DNA of 64,000 bases from Candidatus Cottocaccamicrobium excrementipullorum (GTDB lineage: Bacteria; Bacillota; Clostridia; Lachnospirales; Lachnospiraceae), in assembly GCA_018713255.1 (NCBI GenBank), contig DVFL01000002.1, forward strand, positions 1 to 64,000. The letters are read 5' to 3'. The notes beneath the pieces are model-generated. The model did no database searches. It had not been told where the DNA came from and saw only the letters and a program-made list of their open reading frames with translations. This document shows positions 55,525 through 64,000 of the stretch, piece after piece (position 1 is the stretch's first letter; every line of letters begins with the position of its first letter). The position numbers and the translations under genes were made by a program.

Positions 55525-55560
55525 AAGGACTGCAGTCAAATATTCTGCAGTCCTTCTTTA
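55525..55560. terminator. Bidirectional terminator
   Basis: AAGGACTGCAG / CTGCAGTCCTT (11-bp perfect stem, 9-nt loop) with A-run before and CTTTATTT after. Confidence 0.8.
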
Positions 55561-56192
55561 TTTACAATCTGAATTTCACCTCTTGACAGATGAACCAGAC
55601 CTTCTCTCTGGAAATAACGGAGCATTCTGGTAACCACTTCTCTTGCGCTTCCTAGATGATTGGCAATCCGCTCATGAGTGATTTTCAGGGAATCGCTTCC
55701 TTCCAGAACACCTTCCTCCAGCAGGAAATCTGCCAGCCGCCGATCAAAACTGTTCCACATTATCTGTTCCATCACCCACATCACTTCGGAAAAATTTTGA
55801 CTCATCAGTTCATTGGTATAATTGGCCGCTGCTGCCGACTGCTCCATAATTCCCCGATAGATTTCCGGCGGAATGATCCATACCAAAGAATCCTTTTCTG
55901 CCTCTACAATCACGTCAAATTGAATATTCCGCATCATACAGGAGGCAGACAGAAGACAAATATCTCTCTCGAACAGCCGATACAAGGTAATCTCCCTTCC
56001 CTCTGGAGATACTAAGTAAACTCTAAGCTGCCCCCCACAGACTAAAATCAGTCCAAGACAATCGGCAGATCCATTGTGAAGCACAGCACCTTCTGGCACT
56101 TTTCTCTGTACTGCAGCCTGAATCATCCTGTCCTGCTGATCTTTCGTCAGCTTGTCCCAAAAAGGAAAAAATTCCTTTACTTCCATTTCCAT
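55536..56192 (-). CDS. Crp/Fnr-family transcriptional regulator
   Basis: 218 residues: a cyclic-nucleotide-binding-type barrel (PEGAVLHNGSADCLGLILVC; LRVYLVSPEGREITLYRLFE), the dimer helix, and a Crp HTH (SLKITHERIANHLGSAREVV TRMLRYF). The first ~20 residues have no Cys cluster of FNR type. The target effector is unknown. Starts MEMEVKEF after GGGAGG. It is convergent with trxA. Confidence 0.9.
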   Translation of the reverse strand: MEMEVKEFFPFWDKLTKDQQDRMIQAAVQRKVPEGAVLHNGSADCLGLILVCGGQLRVYLVSPEGREITLYRLFERDICLLSASCMMRNIQFDVIVEAEKDSLVWIIPPEIYRGIMEQSAAAANYTNELMSQNFSEVMWVMEQIMWNSFDRRLADFLLEEGVLEGSDSLKITHERIANHLGSAREVVTRMLRYFQREGLVHLSRGEIQIVNKEGLQNI

Positions 56193-56286
56193 ATCCTCCC
56201 TGCTATACGCCGCCAGTATTGATCTTGCCGCTGAGCGGCTTGACTGGTTTTTCGGTCTCCCCGATCAATGGGAATGTTTAATCCTG

Positions 56287-56622
56287 TCAGGGCAAACGGT
56301 TTTTGTCTCCCCATTCGCACATTCCATCCAAAATAGGGATTAAGGACTTTCCTCGTTCTGTCAGGCTATATTCCACTTTCGGCGGAATCTGAGGATATTC
56401 TTTCCGGTGAATCAGCTGATCGGCCTCCAACTCTTTTAACGTGGAACTAAGGGTCTTATAGGAGATTTCACCGATATACTTTTTCATCTCATTAAATCGG
56501 ACCACCCCAAATTCCATCAAGGTATAAAGGATAGTCATTTTATATTTTCCGTTAATCAGCGACAGCGTATAGCTGAACCCGGTGGAACTAAGGCATTCAT
56601 TGGCGATGCAGCGTTTATTCAT
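56287..56622 (-). CDS. HxlR-family winged-helix regulator
   Basis: 111 residues, MNKRCIANECLSSTGFSYTL, LINGKYKMTILYTLMEFGVV, and the KEYPQIPPKVEYSLTERGKS hallmark. Two N-terminal Cys (5 and 10) could form a redox switch. Start ATG 56622 follows AAAGGAG; the ORF begins earlier at 56643. It has no divergent oxidoreductase partner in the usual place, so it may regulate itself or a distant gene. Confidence 0.88.
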   Translation of the reverse strand: MNKRCIANECLSSTGFSYTLSLINGKYKMTILYTLMEFGVVRFNEMKKYIGEISYKTLSSTLKELEADQLIHRKEYPQIPPKVEYSLTERGKSLIPILDGMCEWGDKNRLP

Positions 56623-56641
56623 TTCGCACTCTCCTTTAAGC

Positions 56642-56668
56642 AAGTATTATACAGTAATGTATGTACTT
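56642..56668. promoter_or_regulatory. HxlR promoter with overlapping palindrome
   Basis: On minus TATAAT (complement of 56646-56651) is flanked by AAGTA...TACTT and the inner TACA-GTAA-TGTA inverted repeat. AGTA-N7-TACT resembles the sites of YodB/HxlR proteins in reversed order. Autorepression is inferred. Confidence 0.5.
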
Positions 56669-56839
56669 GTCGATCACATTATGTTAGCTATCATTATAAT
56701 ATCAGTAACATTGAAAGTCAATTTGATCTGCAAAAGGAGGTGCCGTACATAGATTTTGTTATATTCCTGCCCGTAGGTCAGGCACAGCGAAGGTTGTTCC
56801 GCTGCTGAAACAGCCGGCCGCCGACCCAAAGAAAAACGC

Positions 56840-57511
56840 TTACTGGAAAAACAGCTGAACCCAGTAATGAATCCCGGAAGCATCCTGGTAATGTCCGATT
56901 CCCATGGAAGTATATTGACTTCCCAGAATATTCGCCCGGTGTCCAGAGCTGTTCATCCATCCCTTCATTACCGAAGAAGCATCTTTTTGACCATAGGCAA
57001 TGTTTTCTCCAGAAGTTCTGAAAGAAATTCCCGCGGCCTTAAGGGCAGTGGAAAAGCTGGTTCCGTCCGGCCTGGTATGAGAAAAAAGGGAGGAAATCTC
57101 TTTTGCCCGTACGTTAGCGGCTGCCACAGCACGTTCATCCAGAGAAAGAGCCTTTAATCCAGCCTTTGCTCGTTCTTCATTGACCAGCTGCGCCACCTGC
57201 ATAATCAGAGAATTGTCCGTCTGGTTATTATCAGGACTCTCCGGAAGCTCCTCTTCCGCCCCTCCGTTCTCTGGGAATTCAGGTAACGGAAAATCAGGGA
57301 AAATGTCCTCTGGCAGCTGCCCCTCAGGGAAAATTCCTTCAGGAAAGCCTGGAAGACAATCTGTTCCAGAACCAGTAATCACCACCATCTTTCCTGCTCC
57401 TCCCGGAAGATTATATGTATTTACCGCAGCATAAGCCGTATGCGTTGCTGCGCCCGCGGCAGTTGCTGTCAAAAGGGCGGCTAATGTGTACTTTAACATT
57501 TTTCTCTTCAT
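56840..57511 (-). CDS. Secreted CAP-domain (SCP/PR1, YkwD-like) protein
   Basis: 223 residues: signal peptide (MLKYTLAALLTATAAGAATH, AYA cleavage), a Pro/Glu/Phe-rich spacer with short repeats (EGIFPEG, EDIFPDF), then the CAP domain (VAQLVNEERAKAGLKALSLD; SHTRPDGTSF; SGENIAYGQKD; WMNSSGHRANILG; GIHYWVQLFFQ) with its conserved His and Glu residues. Exported proteins of this type are common in Clostridia; the function is unresolved. AAAGGAG before the ATG. Confidence 0.9.
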   Translation of the reverse strand: MKRKMLKYTLAALLTATAAGAATHTAYAAVNTYNLPGGAGKMVVITGSGTDCLPGFPEGIFPEGQLPEDIFPDFPLPEFPENGGAEEELPESPDNNQTDNSLIMQVAQLVNEERAKAGLKALSLDERAVAAANVRAKEISSLFSHTRPDGTSFSTALKAAGISFRTSGENIAYGQKDASSVMKGWMNSSGHRANILGSQYTSMGIGHYQDASGIHYWVQLFFQ

Positions 57512-57665: not shown

Positions 57666-57728
57666 TTGAACTTTCCTGCGTGGTGTGTTATATTTCCAAA
57701 AGAGAGCAAAACGTTTGCACAATTTCAC
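57666..57728 (+). promoter_or_regulatory. Promoter with LacI-type operator, esterase/ATP-grasp operon
   Basis: TTGAAC (57666-57671), 17 bp, TATATT (57689-57694), then a perfect palindrome GCAAA-ACG-TTTGC (57716-57728) downstream of the start site. The palindrome is LacI-family-like and positioned to block elongation. It fails the CcpA cre consensus at the TG/CA ends. Confidence 0.6.
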
Positions 57729-57754
57729 CACACAAATGATCAGGAGGATACTCT

Positions 57755-58516
57755 ATGGTAGAAAAATGGAAGATCACTATTCCGGAGCTTACCGGCGATG
57801 AAGAACGGGGAGTGTATGTTTATCTTCCGGAATCTTATGGATATCATGACGGCAGACGCTATCCCGTCCTCTATATGTTTGACGGACACAATGTGTTTTT
57901 CGATTCAGATGCTACCTACGGCAAATGCTGGGGAATGAAAGAATACATGGACTTTACACAAAGCCAAGTGATCATTGCTGCAGTAGAATGCAATCACAGC
58001 CCGGATCACGGCCGGCTGAAAGAATACTCTCCCTATGATTTCCAGGAAAAAGGAGTAGGGAAAATTTCCGGAAAAGGGAACATCACCATGGATTGGATGA
58101 GCCAAACATTTAAGCCCCTGATTGACAGCCGTTACCGGACGATTCCCGACCGTGCACATACCTGGATCGGAGGCAGTTCCATGGGCGGCTTAATGAGCCT
58201 TTATGGAGTTTTGGCCTATTCTCATGTATATTCTAGGGCCGCCGCCCTCTCACCTTCCCTCTGGACTAATCCGCGGGAAATCGAAGCGCTGATCCGCCGC
58301 TCCCCAGCAGGCAAGGATACTGTAATCTATATGGACTACGGTCAAAATGAGCTGGCCTCCGGCAGACAGATGGAAAAGCTTTTCAGCCGGATAAACAGCC
58401 TGCTTCTTGAAAAAAAGATCTGCCTGACCAGCCGGATTGTTCCTGGCGGAACTCACTGTGAAGCAAGCTGGGAAAAGCAGCTTCCCTTCATGATGCATAC
58501 CCTGACCTATCACTAA
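57755..58516 (+). CDS. Alpha/beta-hydrolase, esterase-D-like (PF00756 type)
   Basis: 253 residues, no signal peptide: RRYPVLYMFDGHNVFFDSDA (conserved aspartate strand), nucleophile TWIGGSSMGGLMSLY (Ser), YMDYGQNE (acid region) and GGTHCEASW (His). Family members include trehalose mycolyltransferase-like and siderophore or feruloyl esterases. It is the first gene of a three-gene unit with a second esterase and an ATP-grasp ligase. AGGAGG seven bases before the ATG. Confidence 0.85.
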   Translation: MVEKWKITIPELTGDEERGVYVYLPESYGYHDGRRYPVLYMFDGHNVFFDSDATYGKCWGMKEYMDFTQSQVIIAAVECNHSPDHGRLKEYSPYDFQEKGVGKISGKGNITMDWMSQTFKPLIDSRYRTIPDRAHTWIGGSSMGGLMSLYGVLAYSHVYSRAAALSPSLWTNPREIEALIRRSPAGKDTVIYMDYGQNELASGRQMEKLFSRINSLLLEKKICLTSRIVPGGTHCEASWEKQLPFMMHTLTYH

Positions 58517-58617
58517 TAACTGATGTCAGAATCAGTGTTCAGGGGGAACATCAATGCTGATGATTATGGAGCATCGTGATTAGGGATGAAGCTTTCAATG
58601 AATCGAGGAGGGATTTT

Positions 58618-59382
58618 ATGGAAGTGGTTTATTACAAGGAGTACAGCCAGTCTCTTGGGCGGGAGATGGAATGGAAACGGTATGGAAGCAAAGGCCGGCC
58701 AGTTCTCTTCATTCCCTGCCAGAATGGCCGGTTTTATGATTTTGAAAATTATCAGATGGCCGATGTATGGGCCCCATGGATCAATTCCGGACAGGTAATG
58801 GTTTTCTCCGCAGATACCATTGATCAGGAAACCTGGTCCAAAACAGACGGTGATCCACGCAGCCGGATTCTCCGCCATGAAAGCTGGGTGTTTTATCTCA
58901 CCAGAGAACTGGCTCCCCGAATCCGGGAAATTGCCAACCAGCTCAATGGATGGGAAGGCTATCCGTTTATTCTCATTACCGGATTAAGTCTTGGGGCTTT
59001 CCATGCAGCAAACCTGTATTTCCGATTCCCTGATATTTTCGACGGCCTTATGGCCTTAAGCGGCATTTATTCTGCCAGCTTCAGCTTCGGCACTTATCAT
59101 GATGATCTGGTTGATGCCAACTCTCCTGTTGACTACCTGGCCCGCATGCCTAAGGACCATCCTTTTATCAACTGGTACAACCAGAAAAAGACCATTATCT
59201 GCACGGGACAGGGACCTTGGGAAATTCCAGACTGTACCCGGCAGCTGGACCGGGTCCTGGCGGAAAAAGGAATCCATGCCTGGGTAGATTATTGGGGATA
59301 CGACTGTTCCCACGACTGGCCCTGGTGGTATAAGCAGACCGCTTATTTTGTCCCTTACCTTTTAGGCCAGAGGAGTGATTAA
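58618..59382 (+). CDS. Second esterase of the ATP-grasp operon (alpha/beta-hydrolase)
   Basis: 254 residues: EWKRYGSKGRPVLFIPCQNG, nucleophile LITGLSLGAFHAANL (Ser), LMALSGIYSASFSFG, and a C-terminal GYDCSHDWPWWYKQ with the catalytic His. Trp-rich C-terminus. ATG 58618 (MEVVYYKEYSQ) has GAGGAGG; the ORF start at 58576 lies upstream of it. It is not a close copy of the first esterase, suggesting different substrates or acyl transfer roles. Confidence 0.82.
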   Translation: MEVVYYKEYSQSLGREMEWKRYGSKGRPVLFIPCQNGRFYDFENYQMADVWAPWINSGQVMVFSADTIDQETWSKTDGDPRSRILRHESWVFYLTRELAPRIREIANQLNGWEGYPFILITGLSLGAFHAANLYFRFPDIFDGLMALSGIYSASFSFGTYHDDLVDANSPVDYLARMPKDHPFINWYNQKKTIICTGQGPWEIPDCTRQLDRVLAEKGIHAWVDYWGYDCSHDWPWWYKQTAYFVPYLLGQRSD

Positions 59383-59406
59383 TAATTTACAAAGGAGTGG
59401 CAGTGT

Positions 59407-60630
59407 ATGATGAAAAATTTTGTATTTATTTCTCCTAATTTTCCTACGAATTACTGGCTGTTCTGCAGGGAATTAAAGAAAAATGGAATCAATGTTCTGG
59501 GAATCGGCGATCAGCCTTATGAAGAGCTGACCCAGGATTTAAAAGACAGCCTTTGCGAATACTACAAAGTCAGCAATCTGGAAAATGATGATGAAGTCTA
59601 TCGGGGAATCGCTTTCCTGATTTTTAAGCACGGTCCCATCCAGTGGCTGGAATCGAATAATGAATACTGGCTGGAAAGGGATGCCAGGCTGCGCACAGCC
59701 TTTCATATTACTACCGGTTTTCAGGAAGAAGATATTCCTGGAATTAAATATAAATCTAAAATGAAAACGTTTTATCAGAGAGTCGGCATCCCTACCGCCC
59801 GATATCATCTTACCGATACGTTAGAAAATTGTCTGGCCTTCACTGCTCAAGTAGGTTATCCCGTGGTTGTAAAACCAGATAACGGCGTAGGAGCTTCCCA
59901 CACTTATAAAATCGAAAATGACCAGCAGCTGGAGGAATTTTTCACCCATAAAGAAGACGGTGTTTCCTACATCATGGAAGAATATATTATGGGAGAAGTT
60001 AATTCTTATGACGCGATTATCGACTCCAACGGAAATCCCCTTTTTGAAACGGGGAACGTTACTCCCTGGTCTATTATGGATATTGTGAACAATCAAGACA
60101 ATTCTATTTTTTATATCCTTAAGGATCTGGCAGAGGACACCCGGATTGCGGGAAGAGCCACCGCAAAAAGCTTCGGCGTAAAAAGCCGTTTCGTTCATTT
60201 TGAATTTTTCCGCCTGGGAAAAGATCATGAAGGTTTAGGAAAGAAGGGGCAGCTGGTGGCTTTGGAAGTCAATATGCGTCCCTGCGGCGGATTTACACCG
60301 GACATGATTGATTATGCTCATGGAACTGATGTGTATAAGATCTGGGCAGATATGATCGCCTTTGACCGGACAGAATTAAAGCCGGGCAAAGATGCATTTT
60401 GTGCTTTTGCCGGAAGAAGAGACGGCAAGGCCTTTATTCTGAATCATCAGGCTATCATAGACAAATACGGTTCTCACATAAAAATGTCCGGCCGCCTCCC
60501 GGATGTTCTGGCGGAAGCCATGGGAAATCAGATTTACCTGGCCGTTTTTGATACGAAAGAAGAAATGGATGAGTTTTTTGCAGATATTCTGAAATGTCAG
60601 GAAGAAGAAGCTCCTGAAATCTCCTGCTGA
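59407..60630 (+). CDS. ATP-grasp carboxylate-amine ligase-like protein
   Basis: 407 residues: N-terminal Rossmann-like domain (NFVFISPNFPTNYWLFCREL), then ATP-grasp (KSKMKTFYQRVGIPTARYHL; GYPVVVKPDNGVGASHTYKI; SYIMEEYIMGEVNSYDAIID; ALEVNMRPCGGFTPDMIDYA with the metal-binding Glu and Asn). Such ligases form amide or thioester bonds from a carboxylate using ATP. Together with two esterases in one transcript it looks like a small biosynthetic or salvage module of unknown product. AAGGAG before the ATG; a strong terminator follows. Confidence 0.82.
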   Translation: MMKNFVFISPNFPTNYWLFCRELKKNGINVLGIGDQPYEELTQDLKDSLCEYYKVSNLENDDEVYRGIAFLIFKHGPIQWLESNNEYWLERDARLRTAFHITTGFQEEDIPGIKYKSKMKTFYQRVGIPTARYHLTDTLENCLAFTAQVGYPVVVKPDNGVGASHTYKIENDQQLEEFFTHKEDGVSYIMEEYIMGEVNSYDAIIDSNGNPLFETGNVTPWSIMDIVNNQDNSIFYILKDLAEDTRIAGRATAKSFGVKSRFVHFEFFRLGKDHEGLGKKGQLVALEVNMRPCGGFTPDMIDYAHGTDVYKIWADMIAFDRTELKPGKDAFCAFAGRRDGKAFILNHQAIIDKYGSHIKMSGRLPDVLAEAMGNQIYLAVFDTKEEMDEFFADILKCQEEEAPEISC

Positions 60631-60641
60631 TCTCCCAGTTT

Positions 60642-60690
60642 AAAGGGCTGCGGCATCGACTCATTGCTGAGGATGCCGCAGCCCTTTTTT
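60642..60690. terminator. Bidirectional terminator
   Basis: AAAGGGCTGCGGCATC ... GATGCCGCAGCCCTTTTTT, a 16-bp perfect stem, between the convergent ATP-grasp and hydF genes. Confidence 0.85.
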
Positions 60691-60693
60691 GAC

Positions 60694-61950
60694 TTATTCT
60701 GCGGAAAATAGACGGTAAATCTCAGGGAATGGCTTTACACTTCGCTTTAGTATTCCGTTTACATAGGCAATCAGAATTCCATAATTCGTCATCGGTACCT
60801 GCTGATCCGCAGCACAGCTGAGACGATACTTCATTTCTCTTTCATTTAACATACAGCCGCCGCAGTGGACAATAAGGCTAAAGGCTTCCAGCTGATCCGG
60901 GAATTCCGTACCTGAGGTAAAAGAAAACTCCAGATTTTTTCCTGTATACTGCCGAATCCATGCCGGAAGCTTCACGGTACCAATATCGCCGCACTGGCGG
61001 TGATGAGTACAGCCTTCACTGATCAGCACCCTGTCCCCATCCTTCAAATTGTCCAGAGCCATCACTCCCTTTACTGCAGACTCCAGATTGCCCTTGTATC
61101 GGGCAAACAAAATAGAAAAAGAGGTGAGGAGAATATCCTCCGGCGTCTTCGCTGACACAAGTTTAAAGGCCTGACTGTCTGTAATAACCAATTTGGGCTT
61201 CCGGGCCAGGCTGCCAAGGGCTTCTGTCAGTTCTGTGTCCTTTACAGCCATGGCAGCAGCTCCTCCTTCAAGAATATCCCGGATAGTCTGCTGCTGAGGA
61301 AGAATCAGGCGTCCCTTAGGCGCTGCTTCATCAATGGGAATCACCAGCACTGCCGTATCTCCAGGAGACAGAAGATCCCGCACCAGCGGGCGGGAATTTT
61401 CTTGTTTCGCCCCTGCCTTTGCCATCCGTTCCTTCAGTTCATGGATTCCTTCTCCGGTTTTTGCGCTGACCCACAAAATCTCCTCTGGACGAAGTCCGGC
61501 ATCCAATGCCGCCTTTTCCTTTTGTCTGCGGCCTTCTCCCTCCTGATCTTTCTCTAAATCCGTCTTATTAAAGGCCAAAAGAACGGGAATTTTCTTTTTT
61601 CCTATCCGATGGATAATTTCCAAATCTTCCGGATAAAGACCTGCTGAGGCATCAGCCACCAACACAGCCACATCCGTCTTATTTAAAGTCTGAAGGCTTT
61701 TTTTTACGCGGAGATCTCCCAGTTCTCCCTCGTCATCCAGCCCCGGCGTATCCATCATCACTACCGGCCCTAACGGCAGCAGCTCCATAGATTTCACCAC
61801 CGGATCAGTGGTGGTGCCGCCTATGGGAGACACTACCGCCAGATCCTGTCCGCAGACAGCATTCATCACACTTGATTTTCCTGCATTTCTCCTGCCAAAA
61901 AAACCGATATGGATCCGGTCGGCAGAAGGCGTTTGATTTAATCCAGCCAT
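60694..61950 (-). CDS. hydF: FeFe-hydrogenase maturation GTPase HydF
   Basis: 418 residues: GTPase domain (G1 GRRNAGKSSVMNAVCG, G3 MDTPGLDDEGELG, G4 LLAFNKTDLEKD, G5 SAKTGEGI), dimerisation domain, and the C-terminal [4Fe-4S] domain with SEGCTHHRQCGDIG and IVHCGGCML. HydF is the scaffold on which the diiron subcluster is built and passed to apo-hydrogenase. It is downstream of hydG by 18 bp. Confidence 0.95.
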   Translation of the reverse strand: MAGLNQTPSADRIHIGFFGRRNAGKSSVMNAVCGQDLAVVSPIGGTTTDPVVKSMELLPLGPVVMMDTPGLDDEGELGDLRVKKSLQTLNKTDVAVLVADASAGLYPEDLEIIHRIGKKKIPVLLAFNKTDLEKDQEGEGRRQKEKAALDAGLRPEEILWVSAKTGEGIHELKERMAKAGAKQENSRPLVRDLLSPGDTAVLVIPIDEAAPKGRLILPQQQTIRDILEGGAAAMAVKDTELTEALGSLARKPKLVITDSQAFKLVSAKTPEDILLTSFSILFARYKGNLESAVKGVMALDNLKDGDRVLISEGCTHHRQCGDIGTVKLPAWIRQYTGKNLEFSFTSGTEFPDQLEAFSLIVHCGGCMLNEREMKYRLSCAADQQVPMTNYGILIAYVNGILKRSVKPFPEIYRLFSAE

Positions 61951-61968
61951 GCTTCTTCCTCCTGTCTG

Positions 61969-63387
61969 TCAGAATCGGAAATCTCGGTTGCCCTTTTCAA
62001 TTTCTTCCAGATGATGCCGCACAAGCTGCCGCACATTTTCCTTAGGAATATTTAAAATCTCCTGATCAATCAATGCAAGCCCCTTCCTGCGGGTATCTTC
62101 TGAAGCGTAATCCATCAAATATTCCTTCAGCGTCATCAATGCATTGGGCAGACAGCAGTTTTGGATCTGTCCGGATTTACATAAGGACATAAACCGGTCT
62201 CCCGTTCGTCCCTCCCGGTAACATGCGGTGCAGAAACTGGGAATATATCCCATTCCCATCAGCCAATTTACCACCTCATCCAAGGTACGCTGGTCGCTGA
62301 CCTCAAACTGCTCTGATTTCTCATCTTCTGGCTCTTCTTCTACATAGCCTCCTATGCTGGTTCTTGACCCGCCGGAAATCTGAGAAATGCCAAGATGAAG
62401 CACTCTCTCCCGGCATGTTTTGCTCTCTCTGGTGGAAAGAATCATGCCGGTATAAGGAACCGCGATGCGAATGCAGGCCACAATTTTGGCAAAGGTATCG
62501 TCATCGATTCCATTATCAAAAGCATCTGGATCAATATCATCCGCTTTTTTAATTCTGGGAACGCTGATCGTATGAGGACCTACGCCGTATACCGCTTCCA
62601 AATGTTCGGCATGCATCAGCAATCCGGCAAACTCATACCGGTAAAGCTCCAGGCCGAACAGCACACCGCAGCCCACATCATCGATTCCTCCCTCCATGGC
62701 TCTGTCCATAGCCTCCGTGTGGTAATTATAATCATGCTTAGGACCTGTGGGATGAAGCTTTAAGTAGCTTTCCTTATGGTAGGTTTCTTGGAACAGAATG
62801 TAGGTGCCAATTCCTGCTTCTTTCAGCTTCCGGTAATTTTCCACGGTAGTGGCAGCAATGTTAACGTTCACCCGGCGGATGGCTCCGTTCTTATGTTTAA
62901 TGCTGTAAATTGTCTTAATGCTTTCCAGCACATACTCAATCGGATTGTTCACCGGATCCTCTCCCGTCTCCAGCGCCAGACGTTTATGCCCCATATCCTG
63001 AAGAGCGATTACCTCCTGCCGGATCTCATCCTGGGTCAGCTTCTTCCTGGGAATGTGTTTATTTTTTGCATGATAAGGACAGTATACGCAGCCGTTGACA
63101 CAGTAATTTGACAGATAAAGAGGGGCAAACATCACGATGCGGTTGCCGTAAAAATCCTTCTTAATCTGCTCAGCCAGAGCGTAGATTTCCTGGTTTTTAT
63201 CTTCCAGATCACAGTCCAGAAGAACGGCGGCCTCTCTGTGGCTCAGCCCCTTCCGCAGCCTGGCCTTATTAAGGATTTCATCAATGAGCTGGCGATTATG
63301 CTTATTTTGTTCTGCATAAGCAAGAGTTTCCATGATCTCTTCATGGTTGATAAAGTCATCTGCACATTTTGATTTTGGATCGTACAT
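61969..63387 (-). CDS. hydG: FeFe-hydrogenase maturase HydG (radical SAM tyrosine lyase)
   Basis: 472 residues: the radical SAM CxxxCxxC in NYCVNGCVYCPYHAKN, the TIM-barrel core (ALETGEDPVNNPIEYVLESI), and the C-terminal auxiliary cluster CTACYREGRTGDRFMSLC. HydG cleaves tyrosine to supply CO and cyanide for the H-cluster. ATG 63387 has GGAGAAAGG upstream; the hydE stop lies 56 bp upstream. Confidence 0.96.
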   Translation of the reverse strand: MYDPKSKCADDFINHEEIMETLAYAEQNKHNRQLIDEILNKARLRKGLSHREAAVLLDCDLEDKNQEIYALAEQIKKDFYGNRIVMFAPLYLSNYCVNGCVYCPYHAKNKHIPRKKLTQDEIRQEVIALQDMGHKRLALETGEDPVNNPIEYVLESIKTIYSIKHKNGAIRRVNVNIAATTVENYRKLKEAGIGTYILFQETYHKESYLKLHPTGPKHDYNYHTEAMDRAMEGGIDDVGCGVLFGLELYRYEFAGLLMHAEHLEAVYGVGPHTISVPRIKKADDIDPDAFDNGIDDDTFAKIVACIRIAVPYTGMILSTRESKTCRERVLHLGISQISGGSRTSIGGYVEEEPEDEKSEQFEVSDQRTLDEVVNWLMGMGYIPSFCTACYREGRTGDRFMSLCKSGQIQNCCLPNALMTLKEYLMDYASEDTRRKGLALIDQEILNIPKENVRQLVRHHLEEIEKGNRDFRF

Positions 63388-63443
63388 TTTCTTTCCTTTC
63401 TCCCTTGGGTCAGTACCTTCTTCCCCTTCAGGTTTAACTGCCT

Positions 63444-64000
63444 TTAGGCAGTGTTCTTTTTATAGTCTCCACGGTCAACAACCACCTGATACCCAATGGA
63501 TGCCATGGACGCTTTCAGCTCTTCCAGGCCCTGGGCGGCTTCTTTTCCCGTGCAGATTTTATTGTCATAGAGCAGGTATTTTCCCCGCACATTTTCCGGT
63601 GAAAGATTCGGCATTACCACATTTGCACCAGAAAGAATCCCGGCTTCTCTCCCATCCTCAGAAGCAGTTCCCAGGGCTGTGGTAGCGGGAAGGAGCACCT
63701 TCGGCAGCATAATTCTCACCAGACTTAACAAATATAAAGTCAAGCCCACATCCCCCGCCGGCTGATGGCGAAAGGGCGTATCATGATGAGGAAGGAAAGG
63801 ACCGATCCCCACCATTTCCGGCTTTAATTCCTGTAAAAATTCCATGTCTGCAGCTAAGGTATCCGGCGTTTGGCCAGGAGTGCCCACCATAAATCCGGCT
63901 CCAGTCTGGTAACCCAGCTCTTTTAAGGTGCGCAGACAATCTTTTCGATGCTTGGGAGAAAGCTCTGGCGGATGGAGAAGCCGATAATGGTCATCATCCG
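63444..64000 (-). CDS. hydE: FeFe-hydrogenase maturase HydE, C-terminal part (runs off the right edge)
   Basis: The minus-strand frame continues from the window edge as DDDHYRLLHPPELSPKHRKD and GYQTGAGFMVGTPGQTPDTL, then PHHDTPFRHQPAGDVG and ANVVMPNLSPENVRGKYLLY, ending KKNTA before TAA. This is the C-terminal half of HydE, a radical SAM maturase. The ORF track starts at an internal ATG (63890), which is not the gene start. The order hydE-hydG-hydF indicates one operon; no hydrogenase structural gene lies within the window. Confidence 0.92.
   Translation of the reverse strand, partial: DDDHYRLLHPPELSPKHRKDCLRTLKELGYQTGAGFMVGTPGQTPDTLAADMEFLQELKPEMVGIGPFLPHHDTPFRHQPAGDVGLTLYLLSLVRIMLPKVLLPATTALGTASEDGREAGILSGANVVMPNLSPENVRGKYLLYDNKICTGKEAAQGLEELKASMASIGYQVVVDRGDYKKNTA

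Follow-up and report, generated by a model that had tools for sequence, protein, structure and literature searches.

L-amino-acid ligases of the RizA and BacD type serve the rhizocticin and bacilysin pathways, and we know of none that is paired with PF00756 esterases. In the NRPS-independent E-64 pathway a stand-alone ATP-grasp enzyme makes a pseudodipeptide (PMC12568646), and graspetide loci contain an ATP-grasp gene that is sometimes accompanied by an alpha/beta hydrolase gene (PMC8939145). The operon described here, from the gut bacterium Candidatus Cottocaccamicrobium excrementipullorum, encodes two esterases, E1 and E2, and an ATP-grasp ligase, AG. AG, like the E-64 enzyme, is a stand-alone ATP-grasp protein, but two esterases stand where that pathway has an oxygenase and an amide synthetase partner; likewise, the operon shares with graspetide loci an ATP-grasp gene beside a hydrolase gene, but no precursor peptide is seen and AG is nearest to dipeptide ligases. 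The pairing of an ATP-grasp ligase with a neighbouring hydrolase is therefore already known (e.g., PMC8939145); what is new is a conserved trio in which E2 depends on AG. The original prediction knew of no described pathway with this set of genes, and our search of the open-access literature agrees, finding no published pathway with it; the set may still appear in surveys of ATP-grasp gene neighbourhoods published in subscription journals. PADLOC models of anti-phage defence match none of the three proteins.

The operon lies at 57666–60630 of the window, the 64,000-nt stretch of contig DVFL01000002.1 that was analysed. Three genes on the plus strand encode E1 (57755–58516; 253 amino acids), E2 (58618–59382; 254 amino acids), and AG (59407–60630; 407 amino acids), with one promoter on their 5′ side and one strong intrinsic terminator on their 3′ side, the latter a long GC-rich hairpin (−34.7 kcal/mol) followed by T6 at about 60642–60690 of the same strand. 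A GTG at 58576 was considered as the start of E2 and set aside, as homologues and a GAGGAGGG site favour the ATG at 58618. The predicted three-gene operon with its shared promoter and strong terminator is thus upheld, and the only element of that description to fall is an operator of the LacI type, which is taken up below with the promoter.

Against several general ATP-grasp domain models AG scores narrowly above the cut-off, and it reaches none of the curated NCBIfam cut-offs. By both profile and fold its best matches are L-amino-acid ligases: RizA (4wd3) leads the profile search with 68.6 bits, and a Foldseek search with the AG model (pLDDT 88.6) places RizA, BL00235 (3vot; two chains), and BacD/YwfE (3vmm, 3wnz) at ranks 1–4, with E-values from 3.5e-23 for RizA to 1.7e-17. 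In the structural alignment AG and RizA share only about 20% identity, but the alignment spans the conserved ATP-grasp residues, and AG and the L-amino-acid ligases both have an H-x-E motif and an E-x-x-M-R region. K156, E191, H264, E266, E287, N289, and R291 are each conserved in 93–94 of 94 AG sequences; from the RizA alignment and general knowledge of the fold, we take these residues to serve in the handling of ATP, magnesium, or substrate. RizA carries an A at the position of N289. The predicted structure thus places the expected ATP-grasp residues in register with RizA, and this modelling, which had been proposed as a check on the ligase active site, indicates that AG is similar to RizA and BacD in its sequence, its fold, and its catalytic residues. 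Fold proximity and conserved ATP/Mg and substrate residues are both as expected of a member of the L-amino-acid ligases.

This assignment bears on whether AG instead cross-links a ribosomal precursor peptide in the manner of a graspetide ligase. Alpha/beta hydrolases can occur in graspetide loci (PMC8939145), but AG is nearest to dipeptide ligases, the gaps within the operon are too small for a precursor gene, and short ORFs downstream of AG are conserved in at most 4 loci; no widely conserved short ORF, and hence no candidate precursor gene, was found within 600 nt 3′ of AG or in the operon gaps. We regard a graspetide-like function as scarcely credible.

The original prediction would have been weakened had the three genes not stayed together in relatives, and we therefore scanned genome contigs for them; this gave 80 close relatives, most of which are Lachnospiraceae and some Oscillospiraceae. 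The order E1-E2-AG on one strand is kept in 59 of the 66 relatives in which AG was parsed, the two gaps having medians of 31 and 45 bp. The distance matrices for E1, E2, and AG correlate with one another (Mantel r 0.56–0.65, with 0 of 999 permutations as high), an outcome that common ancestry of the genomes might also produce. When all ORFs of at least 90 amino acids in flanks of up to 8 kb were clustered, no other neighbour recurred in more than 12 loci except for one 26-locus cluster, the sampled members of which lie antisense over the triad itself. No conserved transporter or tailoring gene was found near the triad, nor did any conserved neighbour in these flanks hint at a substrate. E2 is missing beside AG, or damaged, in some members of the triad clade (L013, L082, L083, L041, and L012). 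In the last of these (L012:7250–7951) E1 and AG remain, and E2 is in frame but has lost the segment surrounding the catalytic His232; this copy is probably inactive. The same truncated E2 match is found in genome G019.

To follow the distribution of the genes across genomes, we sampled 200 family genomes, drawn from 199 genera, and 399 genomes of the phylum, with the window's own genome in both sets. In the family sample AG is present in 24 genomes, E1 in 23, and E2 in 22, and all 22 of the E2 genomes carry AG (nominal Fisher p 2e-27, the genomes not being independent); in the phylum sample AG is present in 12 and E2 in 10, again always with AG. Because the window's genome is counted twice, E2 occurs in 31 distinct genomes of about 600, and AG is present in all 31. 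Physical linkage alone fails to explain this pattern, because in G025 and G183 E2 and AG are carried by separate contigs. The converse does not hold: AG occurs without E2 in five genomes (G034, G049, G877, G898, and G390), the first two of which also lack E1, and it stands alone in 7 of the 27 divergent loci discussed below, so AG must have some role without the esterases. E1 is less strict than E2, with E1-like genes in G033 and G109 in the absence of AG. E2-like genes of 29–31% identity also occur on rhizobial plasmids that yielded no AG match, and the rule that E2 accompanies AG therefore applies, at our thresholds, only to close orthologues of E2.

The simplest inference from these data is that E2 requires the product of AG, and the absence of E2 without AG from about 600 genomes points to an undescribed small-molecule pathway. 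Co-occurrence is no proof of the order in which the two enzymes act. An arrangement in which AG decorates a cell component with an amino-acid-like group that E2 and E1 take off, setting its level, would also make E2 dependent on AG, and it fits the retention of the ligase-hydrolase pairing while gene order and side vary. However, PF00756 is a family of esterases and acyl transferases, not of amidases, and no linked target gene was found among the neighbours; we consider such a write-and-erase system quite unlikely.

Both esterases belong to PF00756, with 80.0 bits for E1, an esterase-D/feruloyl-esterase-like protein, and 28.6 bits for E2 against a curated cut-off of 22. They had been called dissimilar, correctly, because BLAST finds no significant similarity between them (E 0.71). 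S142, E199, and H234 of E1 are invariant across 85 sequences, and the catalytic acid would be D194 or E199. In E2, S124 and E202 are invariant across 93 sequences and H232 is present in 92, the exception being a gap; we predict a Ser-Glu-His set of catalytic residues (S124, E202, H232) in which E202 is the putative acid. Both proteins thus keep the catalytic Ser and His of PF00756 esterases along with a candidate acid. A single-sequence search of the PDB with E2 gave no significant match. The E2 model (pLDDT 93.4) has the fold of feruloyl esterases (5vol, 7xrt), S-formylglutathione hydrolases (7yvt), and antigen 85, proteins that are also of E1's family. E2 differs from the known PF00756 esterases in being tied to an ATP-grasp ligase and in its N-terminus, which is not signal-peptide-like; a crude hydrophobicity test found no such N-terminus in E1, E2, or AG.

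These structural neighbours raise the alternative of salvage or detoxification, in which E1 and E2 cleave dietary or host esters (e.g., hydroxycinnamoyl esters) and AG conjugates the freed acid to an amino acid. The structures nearest to E1 and to E2 include feruloyl esterases in both cases, and the host organisms are mostly gut bacteria. However, the N-termini give no sign of export in the crude test, the flanks lack a conserved transporter, E2 is seen only with AG, unlike a general feruloyl esterase, and the AG-E2 pair is also found in soil and algal-associated rhizobia. We think this alternative unlikely.

Instead, we lean, with modest confidence, toward a self-contained cytosolic small-molecule module in which the amide synthesized by AG is the substrate of E2, and E1 trims an ester. 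AG would use ATP to activate a carboxylic acid as an acyl phosphate and then join it to an amine, yielding a small amide or dipeptide-like compound as the L-amino-acid ligases do. E2, as a Ser-Glu-His hydrolase, would act on this compound by hydrolysis or acyl transfer, and E1 may hydrolyse, within the same pathway, a precursor or product that carries an ester or thioester. By analogy with antigen 85, E2 might even be an acyl transferase and obligate partner of AG, so that gut Clostridia, other Bacillota, and rhizobia would make a new class of small amide-ester metabolites; we offer this as a tentative and somewhat doubtful extension. The amide or ester chemistry foreseen by the original prediction is consistent with the L-amino-acid ligases nearest AG and with both esterase folds, and its esterase-esterase-ligase interpretation gains from this and from the conservation of the block, with E2 never seen without AG in our samples, while losing the proposed operator of its own. 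Common among gut Lachnospiraceae and Oscillospiraceae, which are largely uncultured, the trio is a plausible source of gut metabolites, and because E2 depends on AG the question of its function is directly testable.

To place the trio in an evolutionary context, 27 divergent loci were compared: 10 have AG with E2 only, six have AG with both esterases, four have AG with E1 only, and seven have AG with neither. In the tree a supported clade of 25 rows holds every triad except the long-branched L154, and all but one of the sampled E1-only loci. E2-only pairs fall outside this clade, and AG-E2 pairs are found in Pararhizobium and Sinorhizobium (on rhizobial replicons) and in Peptoclostridium; on these grounds the AG-E2 pair probably forms the older core, E1 having joined it later in Clostridia. 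For reconstitution, the natural two-gene versions from rhizobia and other Bacillota provide a minimal system. Two genomes, G510 and G358, each have an E1-AG pair plus a separate AG-E2 pair. Genome G053 carries three diverged AG copies (L132, L133, and L134), one with E2 and two alone.

The identities of AG and RpoB disagree in both directions: AG is 66–71% identical between distant families whose RpoB proteins are about 63–64% identical, whereas within the genus AG is only 71.5% identical and RpoB 92% (the RpoB values for G358 and G777, which come from a wrong reading frame, were left out of this comparison). This disagreement at the sequence level suggests horizontal transfer of AG between families. 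Such transfer, together with a patchy presence (24 of 200 genomes), is what would be seen if three unrelated enzymes were merely co-travelling as a mobile block. However, E2 and AG co-occur even when they lie on separate contigs, as in G025 and G183, and the AG-E2 pair spans phyla with differing gene orders, and we judge mere co-travelling highly improbable. On a plasmid of Massilia litorea (L167:3875–7176), a distant AG homologue (28%) follows an aminotransferase and a methyltransferase in what looks like a small biosynthetic cluster; as a clue to substrate this is suggestive, yet the homologue is too remote.

The promoter of the operon (TTGAACTTTCCTGCGTGGTGTGTTATATT; 57666–57694, plus strand) is of the sigma-A type, TTGAAC-17-TATATT with an extended −10 TG, and is an instance of an unusual promoter conserved in relatives, TTGnnATTT-N9-TGTGCTATA(T/G)T. 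Among 39 distinct triad promoters, the three bases after the −35 hexamer are T in 92, 92, and 76%, the two bases just before the extended TG are T in 84% and G in 76%, and A never occurs at position 5 of the −10 hexamer. In triad promoters from L005 to L084 these conserved bases (the TTT, the TG, and the non-A) fall outside the sigma-A consensus. The pattern is absent from a comparison set of 27 other sites, which is small and may include chance matches. In a genome search with the derived pattern the sole perfect match is the operon's own promoter, and three sites have one mismatch (G000:C30:26931, C33:94339, and C41:100807). The conserved bases could be the footprint of a regulator or merely a favoured form of promoter.

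The palindrome that had been taken for a LacI-type operator in the early transcribed region is present in the window (GCAAA-ACG-TTTGC, 57706–57718). Its spaced form, GCAAANNNTTTGC, has 5 copies in the genome against 6 for a reversed-pattern control, and no counterpart with fewer than three mismatches, nor any better than shuffles, was found in 76 orthologous upstream regions. We therefore reject the operator; the palindrome GCAAAACGTTTGC, neither enriched nor conserved, is probably incidental. A structured RNA element in the 5′ region was also considered and rejected: the window's own 5′ region has no notable hairpin (z −0.14) and an Rfam search gave no match, though stable hairpins (z below −2) are present in 13 of 39 relatives tested. 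Those between promoter and E1 in L075, L054, L069, L049, and others are mutually unrelated in sequence.

Other genes flank the operon on both sides. Upstream lies a divergent CAP-domain gene (56840–57511), part of a minus-strand stretch (55536–57511) that also encodes a Crp-family regulator and an HxlR-type regulator. A convergent gene (60694–61950) adjoins the 3′ end of the operon and is one of three on the minus strand (60694–63890) whose products are, by eye, HydF-, HydG-, and HydE-like (hydrogenase maturation).
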